Below, piece by piece: positions 8,326 through 30,900 of a stretch of DNA of 32,132 nt. This DNA is from a virus. The notes below the pieces were generated by a model, which was not told the origin of the DNA, searched no databases, and saw only the letters and a program-made list of their open reading frames with translations. Both the position numbers and the translations under genes were made by a program. The stretch's first letter is position 1, and each line of letters begins with the position of its first letter. The stretch spans positions 1 to 32,132 of the IMG/VR virus record IMGVR_UViG_3300017962_000053; one strand, written 5' to 3'.

Positions 8326-8354
8326 AATTTACAATAAAAAATAATTATTGTCAA
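8326..8354 (-). promoter_or_regulatory. Possible sigma70-type promoter for the kinase gene
   Basis: On the minus strand a perfect TTGACA (8354-8349) is followed after 17 bases by TAAATT (8331-8326), a four-of-six match to TATAAT. The -35 overlaps the TGA stop of the gp13 gene. An RNA start about seven bases past the -10 would fall at the kinase ATG. In such AT-rich DNA a chance match is possible. Confidence 0.35.
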
Positions 8355-9109
8355 CCAATAATAAAACCGTAACCTGTACCACCTGCTAGTGCAGTAGCTA
8401 ATTCATTGTCAAGTTTTTCCATTTCTGCTTGAGCTTCTGCTTTTAATGTATCACCATTTAATGTAGTGCCACCGCCTGGTCCAGCTATTGTGCTAAATTT
8501 ACTACGTGCTTCGCCTAACATATACTTACAACTTGCTAGTGTATAATCTTTTACCCATTGATTAGCTTTGTAATCTTTTAAAATTTCAAAATCGGGCCTA
8601 TAATTATAGCACCATAATAAAACTTCTTCATCTGCTCTTGGACGCTGAAGTATTGTTAATTTTTTTGTACTTGTATTCCATGTAAATTCAATAAAACTAC
8701 CAAACATACGACCAACAAGTTCTTGTTGTTGAGCAAAGAAATCATAAGTTGCAAGACCACCAATACCACTACCTGCTAACAGATAAGTGTTTGTGTATGC
8801 TAGATTAAATGGTTCAAATAAACTGCCACCATCTGCACTACCACCTAGTCTACTACCAACACTACGTCTATAAATTTTTCTTACTTCAATTATTTCGTTA
8901 GGAAGTGTATATTCGTTTTTGTCTTGTTCAAAACCAATTGTAATGTAACTTTCTTCTACTGCATTTTCAGTTCTTTGACGGTATCTATTTAATGCTTTGC
9001 CTAAAGCAGTTTTATAATGTGCAGGATCTAGTTCAACATCAATCATGCCTCCGCCTAAAAAGGTTTCAACATAATCATAAATTTCTTGGTATGCGGTAGT
9101 ATTACTCAT
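8351..9109 (-). CDS. gp13: Neck protein gp13-like (head-tail connector)
   Basis: A 252-aa protein, close to gp13-type neck proteins of marine T4-like phages and shorter than T4 gp13 (309 aa). Recognisable parts are the N-terminal helical region (YDYVETFLGGGMIDVEL, then a YRQRTENAVEESY stretch), the strand DKNEYTLPNEIIEVRKIYRR, and a C-terminal helical region with WVKDYTLASCKYMLGEARSKF. In T4, gp13 and gp14 form the neck that seals the filled head and receives the tail. The start has Shine-Dalgarno GGAG eight bases before ATG and a GATAAATA box at 9133-9126. Unlike T4, where 13, 14 and 15 lie in one direction, gp14 here is divergent from it. Confidence 0.82.
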   Translation of the reverse strand: MSNTTAYQEIYDYVETFLGGGMIDVELDPAHYKTALGKALNRYRQRTENAVEESYITIGFEQDKNEYTLPNEIIEVRKIYRRSVGSRLGGSADGGSLFEPFNLAYTNTYLLAGSGIGGLATYDFFAQQQELVGRMFGSFIEFTWNTSTKKLTILQRPRADEEVLLWCYNYRPDFEILKDYKANQWVKDYTLASCKYMLGEARSKFSTIAGPGGGTTLNGDTLKAEAQAEMEKLDNELATALAGGTGYGFIIG

Positions 9110-9125
9110 AGTTTGTCTCCAAAAG

Positions 9126-9133
9126 TATTTATC
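9126..9133 (-). promoter_or_regulatory. Late promoter box (GATAAATA), left half of a palindrome, for gp13
   Basis: This is the minus-strand half of TATTTATCGATAAATA. It is followed by CTTTTGGAGACAAACT and the gp13 ATG, giving a short leader with a GGAG Shine-Dalgarno. Confidence 0.75.
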
Positions 9134-9141
9134 GATAAATA
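9134..9141 (+). promoter_or_regulatory. Late promoter box (GATAAATA), right half of a palindrome, for gp14-gp15
   Basis: Plus-strand GATAAATA directly abutting the opposite box. Only TGTGT separates it from ATG at 9147, and no Shine-Dalgarno is present, so the gp14 message is predicted to be leaderless or nearly so. Confidence 0.72.
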
Positions 9142-9146
9142 TGTGT

Positions 9147-10301
9147 ATGCCAAAGCTAAGTTTATATAGACCACAAAAATCAAAAGACTACACTTTCTTA
9201 GATAACACTATCTATGAAATGTTTACTGTAGGTGGTACCGATTTTGTAATTCACAAATATTTAGGTCCAAAAAATCCATCAGATGCTGATGCCACAGCAG
9301 ACCAACCTCAATACGATTCTGTAAAATCTACAAACATTCAGGACTTGTTGTTTTTAGAAAACAGAGACAGAAAATATGACAGAGATGTTTATGTAGTACG
9401 TGGTCACTACAATGTACAAGATAACGATTTTGATTTAAGTCAATTTGGATTATTCCTCAGCAACGATACATTGTTTTTAACAGTACATATAAACAGTAGT
9501 GTAAAAACTATTGGTAGAAAACTTATGCCAGGCGATGTAATTGAATTACCACATTTAATCGATGAATATGCTGCTAATGATTTAGAAATAGCACTTAAAA
9601 GATTTTATGTGATCGAAGACGTAACAAGAGCAAGCGAAGGATTCTCACAAACTTGGTATCCACACTTATACAGATTAAAAGTAAAACAAATTTACGATGG
9701 ACAAGAATACAAAGATATTTTAGATTTACCTGCTGCTGAAAATAGCGATAAGACGCTAAGAGATATTATGTCAACATTCGAAATAGAAATGCAAATTAAT
9801 GATGCTGTAATTGCACAAGCAAACGACGATGTCAAATATGCTGGTTATGCAACACAACAATTTTATACTGTGCAAGTTAACGACGATGCTAGTGTTAGTA
9901 TTGTAAGTGTAGATGTTGATAATATAGATGTATCAAGTGGCATTACTGCTGATGTAATTTATGAAACTCCATTAGCAAGTGGTTATTTAGGATATTTAGT
10001 AGGAGATGGTATTCCACCAAATGGATCACCTTTTGGTGTAGGAAGTAGTTTTCCTCCTTTATCAGAAAACGGAGATTATTTTTTAAGGACAGATTTATTG
10101 CCAAATAGATTATTTAGGTACAACGGCAGTGGTTGGACTAAAATTGAAGATAATGTTAGAGCAGAACTTTCTAATACAGATACACGTAATACACAACTTG
10201 GAACGTTTATTAATAATAGCACAGTAAACGAAATTAGTGGAGAAGTTGTTGTAGAAAGACAAGCACTAAGTAAAGCTCTAAAAGCAAAGGCAGATAACTG
10301 A
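9147..10301 (+). CDS. gp14: Neck protein gp14
   Basis: A 384-aa neck protein. The N-terminus MPKLSLYRPQKSKDY, followed by TIYEMFTVGGTDFVIHKYLGP, is characteristic of gp14 in marine T4-like phages. Other typical blocks are RDVYVVRGHYNVQDNDFDLSQFGLF and LMPGDVIELPHL. I chose ATG 9147 because family members begin MPKLSLYRP and because the alternative ATG at 9141 lies inside the promoter box. T4 gp14 is 256 aa; the extra length is a C-terminal extension holding a 'G-D-Y-F ... RYNGSGW' surface module (about 300-335) that recurs in the sheath and gp15-like proteins. Its stop overlaps the gp15-like start by one base (TGATG). Confidence 0.9.
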   Translation: MPKLSLYRPQKSKDYTFLDNTIYEMFTVGGTDFVIHKYLGPKNPSDADATADQPQYDSVKSTNIQDLLFLENRDRKYDRDVYVVRGHYNVQDNDFDLSQFGLFLSNDTLFLTVHINSSVKTIGRKLMPGDVIELPHLIDEYAANDLEIALKRFYVIEDVTRASEGFSQTWYPHLYRLKVKQIYDGQEYKDILDLPAAENSDKTLRDIMSTFEIEMQINDAVIAQANDDVKYAGYATQQFYTVQVNDDASVSIVSVDVDNIDVSSGITADVIYETPLASGYLGYLVGDGIPPNGSPFGVGSSFPPLSENGDYFLRTDLLPNRLFRYNGSGWTKIEDNVRAELSNTDTRNTQLGTFINNSTVNEISGEVVVERQALSKALKAKADN

Positions 10302-12028
10302 TGCAATATTTTTATGATGGTCAAGTAAGACGTTATGTTACACAAATAGTACGTGCTTTTAGTAACTTTAGTTATAAAGACGGTGATGGTGATCTTAGAC
10401 AAGTTCCGGTAACTTATGGTGACCTTACAAGACAAGTTGCTAGTATTATGCGTGACAATAGTGAAAACAAAATTCCAAGTGCTCCTCGTATGGCAGTTTA
10501 TATCACTGGTTTAGAAATGGACAGGACACGTACCAGTGATAGTAGTTTTGTGAGTAAAGTAAATTTACGTGAAAAACAATTTGATGAAGAAACAAACAGC
10601 TATATTGCACAACAAGCAAAAGGATATACTGTAGAAAGGTTGCATCCTAATCCTTTTACGTTGAGTGTAAATGTTGACCTGTGGAGTACAAGCACAGATC
10701 AAAAATTACAAATACTTGAACAAATATTAATGCTTTTTAATCCAAGTTTAGAGTTTCAAACAAACGACAATTATGTAGACTGGACAAGTTTGACAGTGTT
10801 GTTTATGGAGGATATAACTTTTAGTTCACGTAGTGTACCTGTAGGAACAGAAAGTGAAATTGATATATGTACAATGAGTTTTACTGCTCCAATTTATATT
10901 TCTCCACCTGCTAAAGTCAAAAAATTAGGTATTATTACAAAAATTATTACAGGTATAATAAACTCTGACACAGGTACTTTAGAACTTGACGGTTTTACTC
11001 CAGATCCTGATTACATTCCAGAAGCAACAGGATTAGGTGTACAGCTCAATCCGCACGTTACATCTTATAGACAATATGGTATAGATGTAAACAACGGATT
11101 AGCATTATTAGCTACAAACAAGTTATTATACAAGCCAGATGCACATTGGTTAGATGTAATGGAAGCAGAATTGCCTTCACAATATGAACCAAATATTAGT
11201 CAGATAGAATTACGTAGAACTTACTTTGACACACCAGTTAGAGGAACTATTGAAATAAATCCTAGCGATACAACAGAATTGTTTATTGATTACGACGAAG
11301 ACACTCTTCCTAGTAATACTCTGATAGAAGGTCCTTCTCGCAATCCTGCACAATACGGCACGGTTGATTATATTATAAATCCTCGTACATTTAATCCAAC
11401 AACTATTAAAACCAGTGGAGTAAGGATATTGGTGTTAGACGTTATAGGTAATGCAGCGGTAAGAAATTATACACCAACTGGAACAACAAATCGTATTGAT
11501 ACTTACATAGAATATTATATTAATGATATAGAAAAACCAGATGGTGTTACAAGCGGTACATCGTTTCCTGGCTCTCCTACAAAGGGAGATTTGTTTTATA
11601 GGACAGATGAAGATAAGTTATACTTTTATCAGCAAAGTTGGTGGTTAGCTGATAAAGTTACAAGCATTGAAGTTACAGTAGATGGAGAAAGTGTTAGTGC
11701 TAGTGTACAAAACATTGGTGGCTTGTTGTCTATAATATTAGATGAAAATGTAACGCCTGACAATGCTGTAAAATATACACTACATTTCAATGATGACGGA
11801 GCAGACGCTTGGAAAAATAATGATGGCACAGACTTTTTTGCTGACCAGAACGACATAGTAGAATGGACTGGTTCTAAATGGCAAGTTGTATATGATGCAA
11901 GTGAATACACAACTCCTATATTTACTACAAACTTAAATACCGGAGTCCAATATGTTTACCAAGGTGAAGATTGGGTTGAAAGCATTGATGGTTATTATCC
12001 AAAAGGTACTTGGAGTATAATACTTTAA
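10301..12028 (+). CDS. gp15: Tail completion / sheath stabiliser gp15-like, with long C-terminal extension
   Basis: A 575-aa protein; T4 gp15 is 272 aa. Residues 1-210 match gp15: MQYFYDGQVRRYVTQIVRAFSN, LRQVPVTYGD, VERLHPNPFTLSVNVDLW, TDQKLQILEQILMLFNP, and the IYISPPAKVKK end of the core. gp15 forms the hexameric ring that caps tube and sheath and binds the neck. Residues about 215-575 are an extension with repeated GDLFYRT...YFYQQSWW-type modules (about 421-450, 508-530 and 540-560) like those in gp14 and the sheath, so it probably decorates the outside of the tail top. Translationally coupled to gp14. Confidence 0.85.
   Translation: MQYFYDGQVRRYVTQIVRAFSNFSYKDGDGDLRQVPVTYGDLTRQVASIMRDNSENKIPSAPRMAVYITGLEMDRTRTSDSSFVSKVNLREKQFDEETNSYIAQQAKGYTVERLHPNPFTLSVNVDLWSTSTDQKLQILEQILMLFNPSLEFQTNDNYVDWTSLTVLFMEDITFSSRSVPVGTESEIDICTMSFTAPIYISPPAKVKKLGIITKIITGIINSDTGTLELDGFTPDPDYIPEATGLGVQLNPHVTSYRQYGIDVNNGLALLATNKLLYKPDAHWLDVMEAELPSQYEPNISQIELRRTYFDTPVRGTIEINPSDTTELFIDYDEDTLPSNTLIEGPSRNPAQYGTVDYIINPRTFNPTTIKTSGVRILVLDVIGNAAVRNYTPTGTTNRIDTYIEYYINDIEKPDGVTSGTSFPGSPTKGDLFYRTDEDKLYFYQQSWWLADKVTSIEVTVDGESVSASVQNIGGLLSIILDENVTPDNAVKYTLHFNDDGADAWKNNDGTDFFADQNDIVEWTGSKWQVVYDASEYTTPIFTTNLNTGVQYVYQGEDWVESIDGYYPKGTWSIIL
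11561..11986 (+). repeat. Repeated surface modules in the gp15-like C-terminal extension
   Basis: Three short, diverged modules at about residues 421-450, 508-530 and 540-560 share the pattern of a GD/GT turn, an aromatic or D strand, then a Y-x-x-x-x-W or W-T-G-S-K-W end. Protein-level repeats only; the DNA copies have diverged. Confidence 0.55.
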
Positions 12029-15624: not shown

Positions 15625-16302
15625 TCAACTGCTTTTTAACTCATTAATGGTATTTTTTAATTCATCTATTTGTTGCTGTTGTTCTTTAATAGCTTCGATA
15701 AGCAATGGTACAAGTTTTTCATACTTCACTGTAAGATACTGAGGATCACGTGGAGAAGGTGCAACAACTTCTGGCAAAACTTTTTCAACTTCTTGGGCAC
15801 TCACTCCTACTTGAGTGTCTTCATTATTATATCCTAAACTTTTTGCAACTTCGTTTTCTGTATATAGATATCCGTTTAGACTTTTAACTTTGTCAAGTGC
15901 ATTTGATATAGTTCCTTTAAAAGTTTTTAAACGTTCGTCTGAGTAGTATGCTGTAACTTCGCCTGTGGCAGTAAAGTTGCCAGTGATTTGCATTTTTGCA
16001 GCGCCATTGTCACTTGTGCTACCTATAAGAACGTTACCTCCAAACGGTGCTAATTTAACCAAACCGTTGTCTTCAACTTCAATGCTTGGAACACCTGATA
16101 CATCGTTAACACTGAAGATAGTGCCTGTTAAACTAGGTGTAATACTGAACAGTTGTCCAGCAGAACTTTCCCAACTTAGGCTGTTGTCATCTAGTACGTT
16201 TTGTGTTATAGGATCGTTATCAAATCCTGTGAACACAATGCTAGGTAAACCACCTGCATTTCTTTGTGGTGTAATTACAATATTTTTATCACTGTTTGCC
16301 AT
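15625..16302 (-). CDS. Fibre protein with S74 intramolecular chaperone domain
   Basis: A 225-aa protein. The first 110 residues are a beta-rich fibre segment (SWESSAGQLFSITPSLTGTIFSVNDVSG, then VLIGSTSDNG) common in marine phage tail fibres. Residues about 120-225 form a peptidase S74 / endosialidase-type C-terminal chaperone: SDERLK (S121, K126), VGVSAQEVEKVLPEVV, YLTVKYEKLVPLLIEAIKE and a terminal coiled coil. In this family the chaperone trimerises and folds the fibre, then cuts itself off before the serine of SDERLK. Here it is a separate short protein, so it may act as a fibre tip or a chaperone in trans. It has its own GATAAATA box and Shine-Dalgarno (AGGAAA). Confidence 0.9.
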   Translation of the reverse strand: MANSDKNIVITPQRNAGGLPSIVFTGFDNDPITQNVLDDNSLSWESSAGQLFSITPSLTGTIFSVNDVSGVPSIEVEDNGLVKLAPFGGNVLIGSTSDNGAAKMQITGNFTATGEVTAYYSDERLKTFKGTISNALDKVKSLNGYLYTENEVAKSLGYNNEDTQVGVSAQEVEKVLPEVVAPSPRDPQYLTVKYEKLVPLLIEAIKEQQQQIDELKNTINELKSS

Positions 16303-16325: not shown

Positions 16326-16333
16326 TATTTATC
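16326..16333 (-). promoter_or_regulatory. Late promoter box (GATAAATA) for the S74 gene
   Basis: Minus-strand GATAAATA overlaps the last codons of the upstream LamG gene: its TAA is that gene's stop. A leader of about 18 bases with AGGAAA follows before ATG 16302. It splits the fibre region into two late units. Confidence 0.7.
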
Positions 16334-21970: not shown

Positions 21971-24900
21971 TTACTCCTCATACTCCGTATCCCATCTGTC
22001 AACATCTTTACGCTCACCGTACACAGTGTAGAAGCAGTTGATTGGTGCATCGCTGCCAACAATAACAGTGTTGTCAACAATATCTTCAACCCAAATATCT
22101 TGTTTACCACCTATTGCTGTCAAGTTAACAGTAATAGTATCTTCATGTACAAGACCAGTCCAATAATCAGGTAACTCAATTACATTTGTATCTTTCAGTC
22201 TGCCACGTACATATACACCATCTTCTGGACCTTCGAGTGTACCGTGACGTAACTTCATGCCATCTTTGGTTGGGTGATCGATTACAAAGCTCTTGCTTAC
22301 AGCAGCAAAAGTACCGTTAACTTCTAACATATAGTTAGTACCTGGGCTAGTAGTATCACCTTCTCCAAAGCCAATTCTAGCTGCTTTTGCAACAGTTAGC
22401 TCACCATCTGTGGTAAGTGCCATAGCACCTTGAGAATCAGCGTGAGACGAATCACCCCACCAGAAGCCTCTATCATTGGTATTACTCATTTGGAAACTCA
22501 TAGCATAATCGTTTAGACCGCCATATGTGTATCCTGATTTCATACCAATTGTGTATGTGCCGCTGCTCCAAACACGGATCTTATCACGTGTCTGTGAACC
22601 GTTACCGTCTATCAAACCAATGTTATAACGTGTGCTTGCACTAAACAGATCTGGGAATGTACCAGCGTTTAGGTTACTTGCATTTCGGTAGAATGCACTG
22701 CTTTCTCCATCTAGCAAGTCTGCATCTAGTCCGCTACCAGAACCGTCGTTACCGCTGGTCCAAACAGTGTATTCTGTGCCATCTGCATTGTGCTTCAAGC
22801 CATTTACACCACCTAACAAGTCAATGTAGTCGTCGTGTACATCGTTGTAGATACGCACTCTGTTACCACTGTCAACAAACTGCATGTAAGCTCTACGAGT
22901 ACCTGCTTGATACCAACTGATGTATGGGTTACCAGTTGCACTGGTATCTGCCATGCGAATCATTTCGTCACCTGCATGACTCATTGTTAATAGACCAGTC
23001 ATTGTATCAGCTTGATCACTGCGTACAAATTGAGTGCTGTTTATACCATCTAGTAAATCTGCATCAACATTTGTAAGTCCACTACCATTACCAGTAAATG
23101 TACTTGTACCAATGTTGATGTTACCAAATGTTGTAGTAATTTCACCTGCATCTAGTACACCAGTACCTGTTAAGTTACCATATGTTCCGTCAATACGTGC
23201 GTTAGGCACTGTACCACTACTCAAGTTACTTGCATTAAGTTGTGTAAGTGCGCTTCCTGTACCGTTAAAGCTACCGCCGTAAATAGCACCCTGTACACCA
23301 AGTCCACCATTTATTCTAACTGCACCAGTAGTTGTACTTGATGCTGCACTTGTATTGGTAAATGTTTTAACACCTGCCATACTTTGGTTACCACCAAGTC
23401 TACCACCTGCTACTGTACCACTGCTCAAGTTGCTTGCATTTAGACTGCTTAGTCCACTACCATTACCAGTAAATGTGCTTGTACCAATGTTAATGCTACC
23501 AAAGCCGTCAGTTATGCTACCGCTATTTAATGCACCGGTTCCTGTGATACTTGCTTGGTGTTGTGTAATACTCGAAGCAGCAATAGCAGCATCTGGAATA
23601 ACACTGTTGTTGACTGATGTTATACTAGAAGCATTTACATTTGTTAATCCTGCACCGCTACCAGTAAAGATACTTGTACCAATATTGATGTTTCCAAATC
23701 CAGTGTTAATACTACCACTGTTTAGTACACCAGTACCAGTGATATCACCTTGGTGTTGTGTTACGTTACCACTGCTAATACGTGCATTTGCAAATGTACC
23801 ACTTGTAATTTGGCTTGCAGCAATGTCACCCCAGAAGTTGTCAGCAACAACATCTTTAGCAACACGTATACCACCTGTTAGTTTTACACTTGCTGGGTCA
23901 TCAGCAAATGTTTCAGTTCTATCAGCATTTGTAGCATCAGTAAATGTTACAAAACTGTTAGCTGCTAGTGTTGTAAATGCACCTGTGCTTGGAGTGACGT
24001 TACCAATCGGTGTGTTGTTGATTGCCGGTACTGTAAACGTTCCATCAACATTTAGGTTGCCGTCAACGTCAACATTGTGTCTAAATCTAGTTGTACCAGT
24101 TGTTTCGCCAACAACAATACTGGTTGCTGCTTGACCAAATGCAATAGTAGTTGCATTGTCTTTTATTAGGTTAAATGTACCAGTTTCGTCAGTGTCAATT
24201 GTTGTACCATTAACATTTAGATTACCGTTAAGTGTGGTTGTAGCATTCCTGATTGTTGCTGTGCCTGTTGCAGCACCGATAGTTATGCCAGTACCAGCGC
24301 CGGCAATATTGACAGTTGTGGCTGTAGTATTTACTAGGTTAAATGTACTACTATTTGTAGTAATATCGCCGCCATCTACATTAACATCACCATCTACATC
24401 CAAGTTATTGTTGATACTTGTTGTACCTGTTGCAGCACCAATATCAATTGCTGTTGCAGCACCACCAAAGTTAATTGTTGTTGCTGTGGTATCAAACAGT
24501 GCCATTGTTGCACTTGCAGCATTAAGTCCTGTTGTAATAGTCGGGCTTGTACCAAATACTAGAGCACCACTACCAGTTTCGTCGCTTATCACTCCTGCAA
24601 GTTGCGCACTTGTAGTAGCAGCAAATTGACTTAGATTTCCTCTATTAGCAAGTGTACCACTTGTTGGAAGTGTTAATGCTGTATTACCTGTAGTTGTAAG
24701 TGAAAGTGTGTGTGCTCCACTGTGTGTGAAGTTACCGCCTAGTGTAATAGTTTTTGTACCGTTGTTTACACCTGTACCACCGTAAGTTGGGCTAATAATA
24801 GTACCTTGCCATACACCTGTGCCAATTGTACCAACACCTGTTAAACTTGAGTTAACAACTGCACCACCGAGTGTTGTAGAACTTAAAACACTTGCTCCGT

Positions 24901-27900
24901 TGATACGATACGCTTTACCACTTGCAAGTTCAAAGTTTTCACTACTTGTCCAACTATCGGTTGCATTGACCCAATTTATAGTTTTATCTGTAGCACCTTT
25001 TAGTGTAATACCGCCTCCGTCTGCTGTTGCATCGCTTGGTGTTGTTACATTACCAAGCTCAATATTTTTGTCTTCAACTGCTAATGTTGCTGTATCGATT
25101 GTAGTTGTAGTACCGTTTACTGTTAAATCACCTGTAACAACCAAGTTACCTGCAATATCAGTGTTACCTGTTGTAAATGCAACATTAAATTTGTTAAGAC
25201 CGTCGCCAAACGCTAGATCACCTGTTGCACCAATTTGCATACGCTGAGTGCCTGCTGTGTAGAAATCTAATTGATCGTTATCAGTTCCTGCACTGGATTC
25301 AGCTTCGATTTTAGTATCTTGGTCAACGTCTTTAACACCGCCTAAGCTACCCCAGTTTGCTCCGTCATAGCCTTCAAATGTACTATCACTTGTGTTATAA
25401 CGTATTTGACCTTGTGCTTCACCTGTTGCTACACCAGCTTCACCCGGACGTTGGGCTGATGTTCCAACTGGTACTTTTAATCCTGCTGTGCCTGTTAAGT
25501 TTACATAACCTGGAATAATTACATCACCGTCGGTGTTGATTGTCATTCTTGTTGTATATGTTTGCTCAATATCGCCTGCCGTACCAGTATCACCTGTTTG
25601 AATAATTACACTGCCGCCTGTTGCACTACCGGTACTTAAACCGCCTGCAAGTGTTAAATCGCCGCCTGCGATATTATTACCAATACCGCTTTCGCCTTTG
25701 ATTACAGCATCAACTGGAGATGCACTTGCTTCTGCGCTACCCAGTATAACATTTCTGTTTCTCAACAATAGTGTATTATCTCTAACAATTGTACCGTTTT
25801 GTGTTATAGCTGGATCTGCACTAACGTTTGCATCAACTCTTACTGTAAATGATGTTGCAGTTTCACTTGCACCTAGAACTGGCCACGTACCATCAACATT
25901 TGTAATGCCGCTGCCGTTTATAGTTACAGTGTCGCCTGCACGGATACCTAATGTTAAAGGAGTAGTTGTGAAAGTAATATTTGTACTTGTAAGTATACTA
26001 CCAGTTAAATCATTGCTTATGAACACTTCGCCTGCATCGGTAACACCTGTAACAGTTGTATTAGCTGGAATGTTTCCGCTACCTGTTACTAGCATACCAA
26101 ACAAAATGTTTGATGTATCAGCAAATAGAATTACATTTTCGCCATTTGCACTTGCCGCATTTGTTTGTCTTGCTATACTGTTTAGATTGACAGTAACATC
26201 CTGGCTAGTTGCTGCTTCATAACTAATAACATTTGCACTAATATCTCTACCAGTGCTCGAAGCACCTATTTTAACATTTTCAGCGGCGCCGCCTATTTCA
26301 AGAGAAGTAACATTTGTATTGTACACTTGTCCAAGACCTGTGCTGCTAGATGTTAAGTTTGCACTTCCAACGTCCAAGCCTTCTGCAAGATCAAGTGCTG
26401 TACCCCATTCTGGAGTTGTTCCATTAGATTTTAAGAAACTATTGTTTCTACCTATTTCTAATCTATTTAAACTACCTGCTGATTGTGCATAAAGTATATC
26501 GCCTACTGCGTATGTACTAATGTTAGTACCGCCTCTGTTTACCGGAACTAAACTGGTTAAGTTTGCTGGGTTGAGGAAATATGCACTATCTAAACTATCA
26601 AGTGTACCAGCATCAACGACACCGTCTTTAATAAACACTTCGCCTGATCCGTTTGTGTTAACATCAAATTGTTGTTGTATAAATCTTGCAACACCTAACG
26701 TTGAGAAAGTTCCAAGTGGATCATAATCAACATTGCTAATACCAATGTTTACAGGATCTCCATAGAATTCTCCGCCTAAACTAGAACCTGTAAGTGTAAT
26801 CGGGTTGTCAGTTGTGTTTGCTTTTTTCAAACTTTGTACAACAGTCTGATAGCTACTATCACCTCTTAAGAATGTATCAGTGTTGGCAACACCAGAACTT
26901 GCAAGTCTACTAGGACTAATCGTACCTGAAATAATATTTGTAGCATCGATATTAGTAACTGCTAGTGTGTTCCAGTTTGCTTTTATTCTACTAGAAGTGT
27001 TTATCACTGCTGATACTTGAACATTGTTTGGTATAATTTCTGCACTACCTACACCTGCTCCGTCAATATCTTTAGCATTTGTTACTAGTCCATTTATACT
27101 TGCTAGTGCATCAGATCTAAGTTCGTGTATTGTAAAACTATTATCAGTAACACTGCCTACAAAGAATCTACTACCAGTTGCTATAGGATCTCCGGCAACA
27201 CTGAATAGCTCGTTAGCAGTAGATCCATCACTTAATGTTTCAATTCTAATAGCATCGCCAGTTGTCAAACCATGTGCTAATACTGTTAAACTATTGTCAA
27301 CTTGGTTTACCACTCTACGTGTAATATTATGGTTGTTGTTTGCAGGAGTAGTTAAAAATTCTACTTGATTTAACAAACTAAAATCTTCATACAACTCTAC
27401 AGTGCTATTGTCAATTCTTTTTGTATAATAAACTTGACCGTTTATTAATCCACCTATAGCAACATTTCCTAATGTGTTATAAACAACAGGGTCTCCATTG
27501 CCAAACACGTGATTTGCTATGGTAATTCTGTATGTAGTATAGTCAACAGCACCGCCACCACCAGTTGTACCTGCAAGGAAGTTTTTAGATTCTTCGTCAT
27601 CTAAGTTAATAAATTTAGCATTTTGTACTGCTGAATTATCTTCAACAAAGTCAATACTTGTTGCACTAGCGACAAATAATTCACCACCTAGAATATTTAC
27701 ATATGCACGTTTTTCTATAGAAGAAACGTCAATTTCAAAGCCACTACCTGTTCCGCCTATTGAACTTGCAAGTGTCGATAATGTATCTCCAACAGCGTAT
27801 CCAGTACCACCTGTTTTGATATCAACGTCAGTAACTTGTCCTGCTGTGACAGTAATATCAGCTGTTGCTCCAGAACCAGAACCTGATACATTTGTTAGTG

Positions 27901-30900
27901 CAACATTTTCGTAAACTAACGTTCCGCCTGTAGGAGTATACAAACTACCGCCGGTAATGTTACCATTGTCTACGTTTGTTAAAACACCATAACGAACTTC
28001 GCTTACAGCACCTTGAGCATTACCATCAGCACTTGTTACAATAGTTCTAGCAGTACCGCTATCTCCTGTGCTCGATACATCGCTACCTGTATTTGCAATT
28101 GTAAATGTAGTCGACGAAGGAACACTTAATATTTTACCATTAACTGTAAATGTTGTATCTCCTTCGACAACAACTTGAACATTATTATCTATTTGGAAAT
28201 TATGAGCACCACTAGTAGTAATTGTAGCAACATTACTACTTCTTGCAATGTTAGTAATAGTTTGACTTGTAAATGTGTAATCGTCATCTGGATCAAGCAC
28301 AAGGTATTGACTTGAAATACTTGAACGTAAAAAGAAGTTGTCAATAATATCGGAACTACTTCCTTTTGAATCAACGGTTAAACCAGAGTCAACACCGTTG
28401 ATATAAATTGTACCGGCACTTACTTCCCAAGGATCAGCAGTACTATCTGCTGTTTCATCCCAACGCTCTCCTTGCGAAGCAACTAGAATATTACCACTAT
28501 TATCGTAACTACCTTTTGCATATGCAATAGCTCCCTCAACTCCTGGTTGGGTAATCACATCGCCGTCGTTGGCTGTTATATTACCACTAAGTGTAAGTTC
28601 AACTTGCTGATAGTTTTCAGTAGCAATGTCACCAGCTTTTAGATCAGCTGCTGGAATATTATCTACTTGTTCTAGTCTAGACAGATAACCATTTGTGTTT
28701 GTGTTTGTAAACTGACGTGTAGCAGGAATCAAGTCTGCATTCAACTGACCGTTTGTGTTCAACTGAACAATAGCACCCGGAACAGCCGCAGTAGACACAG
28801 TTTTGTCAACAAAGCCACCTAGCCTGTTACTAATAAAACTTCTTACTGCTAACTGTGTAGAAAGTCTAGCATCACTAGGACCGCCGATTTCATCGTCACC
28901 CAAGTTAACACTGGTTGAAATTTCTTCAATAGCAACATCTGACAAGCTCAGTCTCAATGCGTCAAGTTCGTCCACCTGCACTTTGTTTCTAAATGTAATG
29001 TTACCAGTTCTGTTGAACGCTGTAATAAAGTCACCAACCTTAAAGTCACCAAGTTCGTTTGTACCTGATGAGTAGCAACGACCTGGTAATTCTTCAAACT
29101 GTTCATATTCTTCTCTTGTGTTACCACCGTTTTGTGGAAGTGCATTATAGTCTGTACCAGAACCTGCATATTCCCAAGTGTGTGCAGATGAGTTAACAAC
29201 CGATGGTCGGTGGAACCATACTGATTTTTCTGGTAAGTTACTTAGGTTTGTTAGACTACTTGTACCGTCTGTAGCAGTAACGGTAAATGTAGCAGTACCT
29301 AAATCTCTAACTGCACTAACTTCGTTTACACCAATACTTGTGTTAGGTGAACCAGCATGATCGCTGGTAATTGTACTAGTTGCATCAAATTGAATACGTA
29401 ACGTGCTTGATCCAACTGTAACTTGTTCTACACTAACAATAAGTTTTCTTTCTATAGGTGTCCAACTGTGTACAATAGCAGCATTATTGTTTACTCCTGT
29501 TGTACCTGTAATCTGTCTACCTGGAACAAATTCGTAACTTTCAGACCCTGATTCAAGTATTAACTGTTGATAAGTTGTATGACTGCTTAAAATTTCTTCT
29601 ACAAAAAACTCTATAATATTTGATAAGAATTTATGCGTTCCGCTATTATTAAAGCCGGTAAACAATACAACATCGAATTCCAAACTATCATCAAATGCTA
29701 AAGTAAATTCATTCTCATCGATTAGTTTGATGTAGTATGTTTGTTCTGGATCTAAACCGCCAATTGGTGTGTTTCCGTCTGGATCGTATATAACTTTTTG
29801 TCCATTTGTGTATCCATGTCCTGTGATTGTAAAGATACTTGTGCCAGCATTAACATCTGCACTTGCATCAAAAGTTTGCTCAGTTGGTGCTGGTTTATAT
29901 GAGTTTGTTACATCACCTTCTGAACTAACCTCAGTGTATGACGGAATATCGCCAGGATCTCTAATTGCTTCTTTTACAATTTCAAATCTTGAATCTACAA
30001 AGTCTTCGATTGCTAGTGTAACACCTGTTAGTCCACTTATTGCTGTGTTTGCTAACTCACTTGCTTTTTCAACAGCAGCAATAGTTTGACGTTCTTGTCC
30101 ACTAATTTGACTTCTAGTACTATCTGCTAAGTTGTTGGTATAGTAAGACAAGCCTGCGGCACGTGTGTATCTATTACCAGTATCCCAAGTATCTTGTGCA
30201 ACAGCTTCAACAATTAGTCTTGTATCTCTACGACATTTTTCAATGTCGTATGTAAAGTTGTACCAGATAGCTGGTGCAATTTGTTCTTCTATGTATTCGT
30301 TTACATTTTGAGCAATATTAATTCTTGTTGTGTAATCAAGTAAGTTATAATTATCCTGTAAACTTTGTGTTGTCCAAGAAATATCTGGATAATCTTGTTC
30401 AAGTTCACTTATTGTTGCATCGCCATCTGCATCAATATAATCTATAATTTCTTGCACTAGAGATTCTGCTTTTGTTGCAGCAGCTGAAGAACCAGCAGTG
30501 CCACTTGTGTCTTGCACTTCTGTTGTACCACTTGAAGTTGTAACAGCAGTTTCTAGTATAACTTCGCCAATTACTGTTTTGAGTCTGCCATAAGCAGCAA
30601 TAGTTTCTTCTTTTTTACCAGAACCATATTGTGCTACTGTACCGACAAAGTACGCCAATGCAGCGTCATATGTTTGTAAGTTTCCGCCATATGTTAAGTC
30701 ATAAATCAAGGCGTCGATAATCAATCCAATATCTTCTTGACATTTCGCAGAATTGTAAGCAAAATTAGTTGCAAATGGTGAAGTGCCTGCCGAAACTTGA
30801 TCAGCTATCCAAGCAGTAACTTCATCTTGGACAAATGCTTTGTTTGCAATTAATTGTTGTACTGCATTTGCGTAACCTGCGTCACTAGCATTATTTGATC

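Follow-up and report, generated by a model that had tools for sequence, protein, structure and literature searches.

Back-to-back T4-type late-promoter boxes between the divergent gp13 and gp14-like genes of a marine phage clade, with a predicted leaderless gp14-like mRNA

The cI mRNA of phage lambda is leaderless. Leaderless phage mRNAs are also known from Thermus phage phiYS40, as described in the consulted part of PMC3594737. The late box of T4 occupies positions −13 to −6 relative to the RNA start, and the first position of the T4-type late box varies, according to the consulted sections of PMC1524935; these sections also report a late box of phage Aeh1 that resembles GCTAAATA. T4-type late promoters have been described, as have leaderless phage mRNAs, and the titles and abstract openings surveyed in the jumbo, phiKZ, Pelagibacter, cyanophage, and T4 literature contained no report of a leaderless mRNA from a T4-type late promoter. 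In the same survey of titles and abstract openings, we did not meet a late regulon that is split into leaderless and leadered classes by the distance from promoter to AUG.

We investigated the gap between the divergent gp13 and gp14-like genes in a 32,132-nt stretch of viral DNA (IMG/VR record IMGVR_UViG_3300017962_000053), which is referred to as the window. The gp13 gene, encoding a neck protein (head-tail adaptor Ad2), lies at 8351–9109 on the minus strand and was assigned by phrog_211 (E 8.6e-33) and by hhalign against T4-type gp13 (Prob 99.6). The gp14-like virion gene lies at 9147–10301 on the plus strand (phrog_11591, E 1.5e-89), and gp15, the tail sheath stabiliser gene, lies downstream of it on the same strand at 10301–12028 (PF16724, E 1.6e-22; hhalign Prob 98.1). 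As an earlier note on this DNA had stated, the gap measures 37 bases (9110–9146, between the gp13 ATG at 9109 on the minus strand and the conserved gp14-like ATG at 9147 on the plus strand) and contains a 16-bp palindrome, TATTTATCGATAAATA, at 9126–9141, which we checked to be its own reverse complement. The palindrome is made up of two abutting late-promoter boxes of the sequence GATAAATA, that of gp13 at 9126–9133 (minus) and that of the gp14-like gene at 9134–9141 (plus), the latter 5 nt from the ATG.

The statement in the earlier note that each half is a box seen before other virion genes also held. The window contains five copies of GATAAATA, all of which precede virion genes, and the three copies outside the palindrome are on the minus strand: at 3668–3675, 4 nt from the ATG (3663) of a second tail-tube-like gene (2344–3663), whose relatives show the same distance class; at 4381–4388, 24 nt from the ATG of the tail tube gene (3730–4356), with the SD AAGGAG; and at 16326–16333, 23 nt from the ATG of a tail-fibre-like gene (15625–16302), with AGGA. 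The tail-fibre-like gene is predicted to be leadered. The two tail-tube-like genes are adjacent, and the first is predicted to be leaderless and the second leadered. Dinucleotide shuffles gave a mean of 2.40 copies of GATAAATA, and 5 of 100 shuffles contained at least five. ATAAATA as a whole was rarer in the window than expected (8 observed, 16.6 expected), and the three sites without a leading G were inside genes. Sigma-70-like sites in the window were near the shuffle level (32 versus 24.7 ± 4.1). An open frame of 3386 codons (21971–32131, minus strand) continues past the end of the window. As a mere hint at the host, three MAG contigs with a gp13 relative were labelled Rickettsiales MED657 (two) and uncultured Ca. 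Pelagibacter (one); these may be binned phage contigs.

The name of the gp14-like gene is based on its place between gp13 and gp15 together with a profile match that is weak: the hhalign E value against the gp14 profile was 0.0037 (Prob 8.8), compared with 0.35 for gp13 and 0.9 for gp15. No relative was found in the PDB (best E 0.068, to Hsp33), and the AlphaFold model (pLDDT 50) was too poor for a fold search. The listed open reading frame starts at 9141, but some relatives align only from residue 3 onward. The N-terminus M-P-[KR]-[LI]-S-L-Y, which starts at 9147, was conserved across 20 aligned sequences (L062 was left out of the alignment). Moreover, the leadered, SD-bearing homologs of Phosso and PA5oct begin at the Met that corresponds to 9147. 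These comparisons indicate that the true start of the gp14-like gene is 9147 and not 9141.

Since the T4 box lies at −13 to −6, RNA synthesis is predicted to begin at the sixth base past the box. The minus promoter would start RNA at approximately 9120 (predicted +1 at 9120) and yield a gp13 mRNA whose leader, GGAGACAAACT (9110–9120), is 11 nt long and opens with the SD GGAG. The plus promoter would start RNA at 9147, on the A of the gp14-like start codon, and its mRNA is therefore predicted to be leaderless; initiation on such an mRNA would need a ribosome that recognises a 5′-terminal AUG. The gap would thus hold two independent T4-type late promoters, each with no more than an 8-bp box, that are oriented divergently and separated by few bases or none. 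We put the probability of this reading, in which two back-to-back late promoters give a leadered gp13 mRNA and a leaderless gp14-like mRNA, at approximately 80%.

The conservation of the gap was examined using the gp14-like protein as the query. Eighty IMG/VR loci were kept, 79 of which show the start region; L038, which is truncated and has no gp14 start, was dropped. These 79 loci and the window (80 sequences) gave 34 distinct 60-nt upstream sequences. Two divergent late boxes, of the form NNTAAATA, were present in all 34 distinct gaps, and the spacing between the boxes ranged from −2 to 17 bp (0 in 13 gaps, 5 in 9, and −1 in 4). The plus box was exactly 5 nt from the gp14-like start in 32 of the 34 gaps, with a variable spacer sequence, and differed from GATAAATA in seven (five GCTAAATA, one TATAAATA, and one CATAAATA). 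In a separate set of contigs, 22 of 23 gp14 starts were 5 nt from the box. The comparison with related phages, which the earlier note had proposed as a check on the palindrome, supported one part of the claim and contradicted another: the divergent boxes were found throughout, but 20 of the 34 divergent gaps lacked a perfect palindrome, which was present in only 14.

The exceptions to the 5-nt distance were L051 and L053–L055, which keep the boxes but have AAGG or AGGAG ahead of a start located 26 or 28 nt from the plus box. In these lineages, the gp14 start is displaced 21–23 nt downstream and an SD-like motif is present. The gp14 tree was built from 30 of 31 representatives and three outgroups, omitting proteins of 250 residues or fewer (L062). 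L053 sits among 5-nt relatives in this tree, so its gp14 leader was probably regained. In L053, L054, L055, and L210, the gp14-like gene seemingly starts at ATT, seven bases past AGGAG.

A homolog of the late sigma factor gp55 was detected on one related clade contig, G025 (L192:15058–15930; hmmsearch E 3.9e-16), whose gap likewise contains the two boxes and places the gp14 start at 5 nt; none was seen in the window, a 32-kb fragment. This homolog and the box pairs in 34 of 34 gaps uphold the claim of the earlier note that back-to-back T4-type late boxes serve the divergent gp13 and gp14-like genes. Iterated profile searches for relatives of gp33 and gp45 gave none in the marine contigs, Phosso, PA5oct, and 120 kb of Atu_ph07. 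PF02916 matched 2 of 10 records, T4 and, below the cut-off, HTVC008M. The promoter machinery of the clade may differ from that of T4, and hence the start point may differ as well.

The earlier note had also proposed that abutting late promoters share one polymerase and thereby set the ratio, or the alternation, of the two neck proteins. This proposal is compatible with the two-promoter reading, and we regard it as possible but rather unlikely. In its favour, the boxes are closely paired in every distinct gap, and the predicted starts at 9120 and 9147 are 27 bp apart. The open complex unwinds the DNA from −12 to +2 according to the available part of PMC7892883, and occupation of both starts at once would be unlikely, so that the two polymerases may exclude each other. 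Furthermore, the orientation of the T4 clamp sets the direction of activation (PMC2988020, as far as its consulted part goes), and one site could be read either way. On the other hand, the spacing between the boxes is not fixed among the relatives, the search of the jumbo relatives found neither gp45 nor gp33, and a compact gap would by itself suffice to place the boxes near each other. HTVC008M has no such device, and its gp13, gp14, and gp15 genes lie side by side in one direction.

To determine how the box is placed before other genes, we used a clade set of 1.09 Mb with 911 called genes, which was assembled from the window and from 56 pieces belonging to 22 related contigs (several marine contigs were taken in part only). 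Boxes were counted from 60 nt upstream to 40 nt downstream of the starts given by a simple in-house gene caller, and the distance was taken from the ATAAATA box to the first in-frame ATG. The distances of the 167 boxes were bimodal: 45 were at 4–5 nt, 8 at 3 or 6–8 nt, 2 at 9–14 nt, 110 at 15–35 nt, and 2 beyond. Twenty permutations of the motif gave a mean of 1.0 and a maximum of 3 at 4–5 nt, and the 110 boxes located 15–35 nt before clade starts compare with a control mean of 13.8, which is an enrichment. Another distance rule gave 181 boxes, 43 of which were at 4–6 nt. An SD-like motif preceded 1 of the 53 short-class starts (3–8 nt) and 101 of the 110 long-class starts. Under the T4 rule, the 12 of the 45 short boxes that are at a distance of 4 would need a start one base earlier, which counts against the leaderless reading.

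The contigs are related and the gene counts are not independent; counts of gene families are therefore the fairer measure. Nine families had the box at 4–5 nt, 21 had it at 15–35 nt, and none had it in both, while permuted motifs reached 0–3 families. A wider box, N[ACG]TAAATA, gave 15 short-distance and 27 long-distance families, again with none in both. ATAAATA was the most widespread non-SD-like 7-mer ending 4–5 nt before called ATGs (nine families). The short class includes the gp14-like gene, the second tail-tube-like gene, a protein of approximately 700 aa encoded beside the terminase, and a protein which, from its motif, we take to be nucleotidyltransferase-like. In a subset of 30 of the 160 loci, picked chiefly for the length of their contigs, ATAAATA-N5-ATG had 55 matches versus 11 for the reversed pattern, a count that includes the gp14 site that helped pick many of the loci.

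These distances bear on a second alternative, in which the minus box is the sole promoter, the plus box is present incidentally or at most assists melting, and translation of the gp14-like gene uses a transcript begun farther upstream. Between the plus box and the ATG there is no space for an SD, and the plus box departs from GATAAATA in 7 of the 34 gaps, as this alternative would allow. However, the plus box occurs in all of the gaps and keeps its fixed 5 nt in 32, the variant GCTAAATA resembles the late box reported for Aeh1 in the consulted part of PMC1524935, and the 4–5-nt layout extends to nine gene families, compared with at most three for permuted motifs. An RNA started upstream would, moreover, lack an SD before the gp14-like ATG. 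We consider this alternative improbable.

In regards to the palindrome itself, the window contained one 16-bp palindrome compared with a mean of 1.13 in 100 first-order Markov sequences, none of which contained the exact motif. A palindrome of this length is unremarkable per se, and the significance of the site lies in the boxes and their conservation. The relatives keep the pair of boxes and a single exact distance, which makes the palindrome a by-product; it arises when both boxes start with the G favoured in the clade and abut exactly. The variable spacing and the presence of a perfect copy in only 14 gaps do not support the palindrome as a functional unit. For the same reasons, we reject it as an operator, in which a dimeric regulator on the dyad would control both genes and the likeness to the box would be secondary. 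The dyad is perfect in the window and in 14 of the 34 gaps, as an operator would predict, but in the other 20 it is imperfect, the distance between the half-sites differs by as much as 19 bp, more than a dimer of fixed geometry would accept, and a lone half-site stands before other virion genes at promoter distance; we regard an operator as very improbable. A chance origin, as an AT-rich palindrome in an AT-rich gap, agrees with the expectation of approximately one 16-bp palindrome per window of this composition, but is refuted, to the point of being negligible, by the conservation of both boxes in every distinct gap and by the close box pairs (within 30 bp) in the 1.09-Mb set, of which 22 were divergent, 21 of them at gp13/gp14, and 2 convergent. 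The other divergent pair, in L213 near 8041, has each box 5 nt from an ATG, and both of its genes are therefore predicted to be leaderless.

We compared the box-to-ATG distances with those of other phages. In the Pelagibacter phage HTVC008M, 7 of 15 boxes were at the peak (5 nt), and all nine ATAAATA-N5-ATG matches fell on start codons annotated by others, while the reversed pattern had one match. These nine include the genes for the tape measure, the tail tube cap, the DNA end protector, and two baseplate wedge proteins; among their start codons are those at record positions 6280, 19456, and 49760 and, on the minus strand, 16007 and 18916. Mosig (1 of 16; 140 kb), Melnitz (1 of 15; 140 kb, both genomes being 141–142 kb), and PA5oct (1 of 24; 280 of 287 kb) each had a single box at 4–5 nt. 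None was found in P-SSM4 (18 boxes), S-PM2 (17), T4 (18; 160 of 169 kb), KVP40 (17; 240 of 245 kb), phiM12 (3), Phosso (25; 400 of 469 kb), and Atu_ph07 (8; 120 of 490 kb). Caulobacter phage Cr30 and Sinorhizobium phage phiM9 had no ATAAATA-N5-ATG match. The 4–5-nt peak is present in two lineages among the phages compared. It does not simply follow the host because Mosig and Melnitz, whose hosts are SAR11 (Pelagibacter) and OM43, respectively, are without the peak; with the peak in HTVC008M, the host is not supported as its sole cause.

The fixed 5-nt spacing is a stronger result than the palindrome and predicts leaderless late mRNAs for the gp14-like gene and a set of other late genes in the clade and in HTVC008M. 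We put at even odds a wider reading of the sequence comparisons, in which the late genes of the clade fall into two translation classes by promoter placement alone, leaderless with the box at 4–5 nt and otherwise with a short SD-bearing leader, and with the class fixed for each family. The gp13/gp14 site would then emit one mRNA of each class, in opposite directions, and the supply of each neck protein could be tuned on its own through the condition of the host ribosomes or initiation factors, as well as through the facing of the polymerase. If true, this would be a very simple way of writing the translation mode into the promoter, and the 4–5-nt peak would be a marker that can be read from a genome. 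It would also allow leaderless translation to be tested readily in abundant marine bacteria, and it would settle the start-codon choice for the gp14-like gene in favour of 9147.

The clade resembles phages with gp55-dependent T4-type late promoters in having an 8-bp TATAAATA-like box before virion genes and a gp55 homolog. GATAAATA agrees with the T4-type consensus TATAAATA at 7 of 8 positions; the first base of the T4 consensus is T, whereas that of the clade box is mostly G, which counts against the two-promoter reading. Approximately one-quarter of the clade boxes are 4–5 nt from the ATG, compared with 0 of 18 in T4, 0 of 17 in S-PM2, and 0 of 17 in KVP40. T4 also carries, near 116.4 kb (L233:16441), a pair of divergent late boxes only a few bp apart, which gives the back-to-back layout a precedent; this pair differs in that its rightward gene is leadered with AAAGGAG and that it is not in the gp13/gp14 gap. 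HTVC008M shares the 5-nt peak but belongs to another lineage (Kyanoviridae), its gp13 box is at 8 nt, its gp13, gp14, and gp15 are co-directional, and no close divergent box pair was found in it. Divergent gp13-like and gp14-like genes also occur in Agrobacterium phage Atu_ph07 and Sinorhizobium phage Phosso, in which the gp14-like start is farther from the box (preceded by GGGAG in Phosso) and the 4–5-nt peak is absent. The gap of Atu_ph07 (L163) contains the abutting variant boxes TATTTAAC and GGTAAATA, so the back-to-back layout may predate the marine clade. The predicted gp14-like mRNA is like those of phiYS40 and lambda cI in beginning at the start codon. What sets the marine clade apart from these systems is that its predicted leaderless class follows, for each gene family, from the fixed distance of a T4-type late box, and that boxes of this kind would also give rise to a leadered class.
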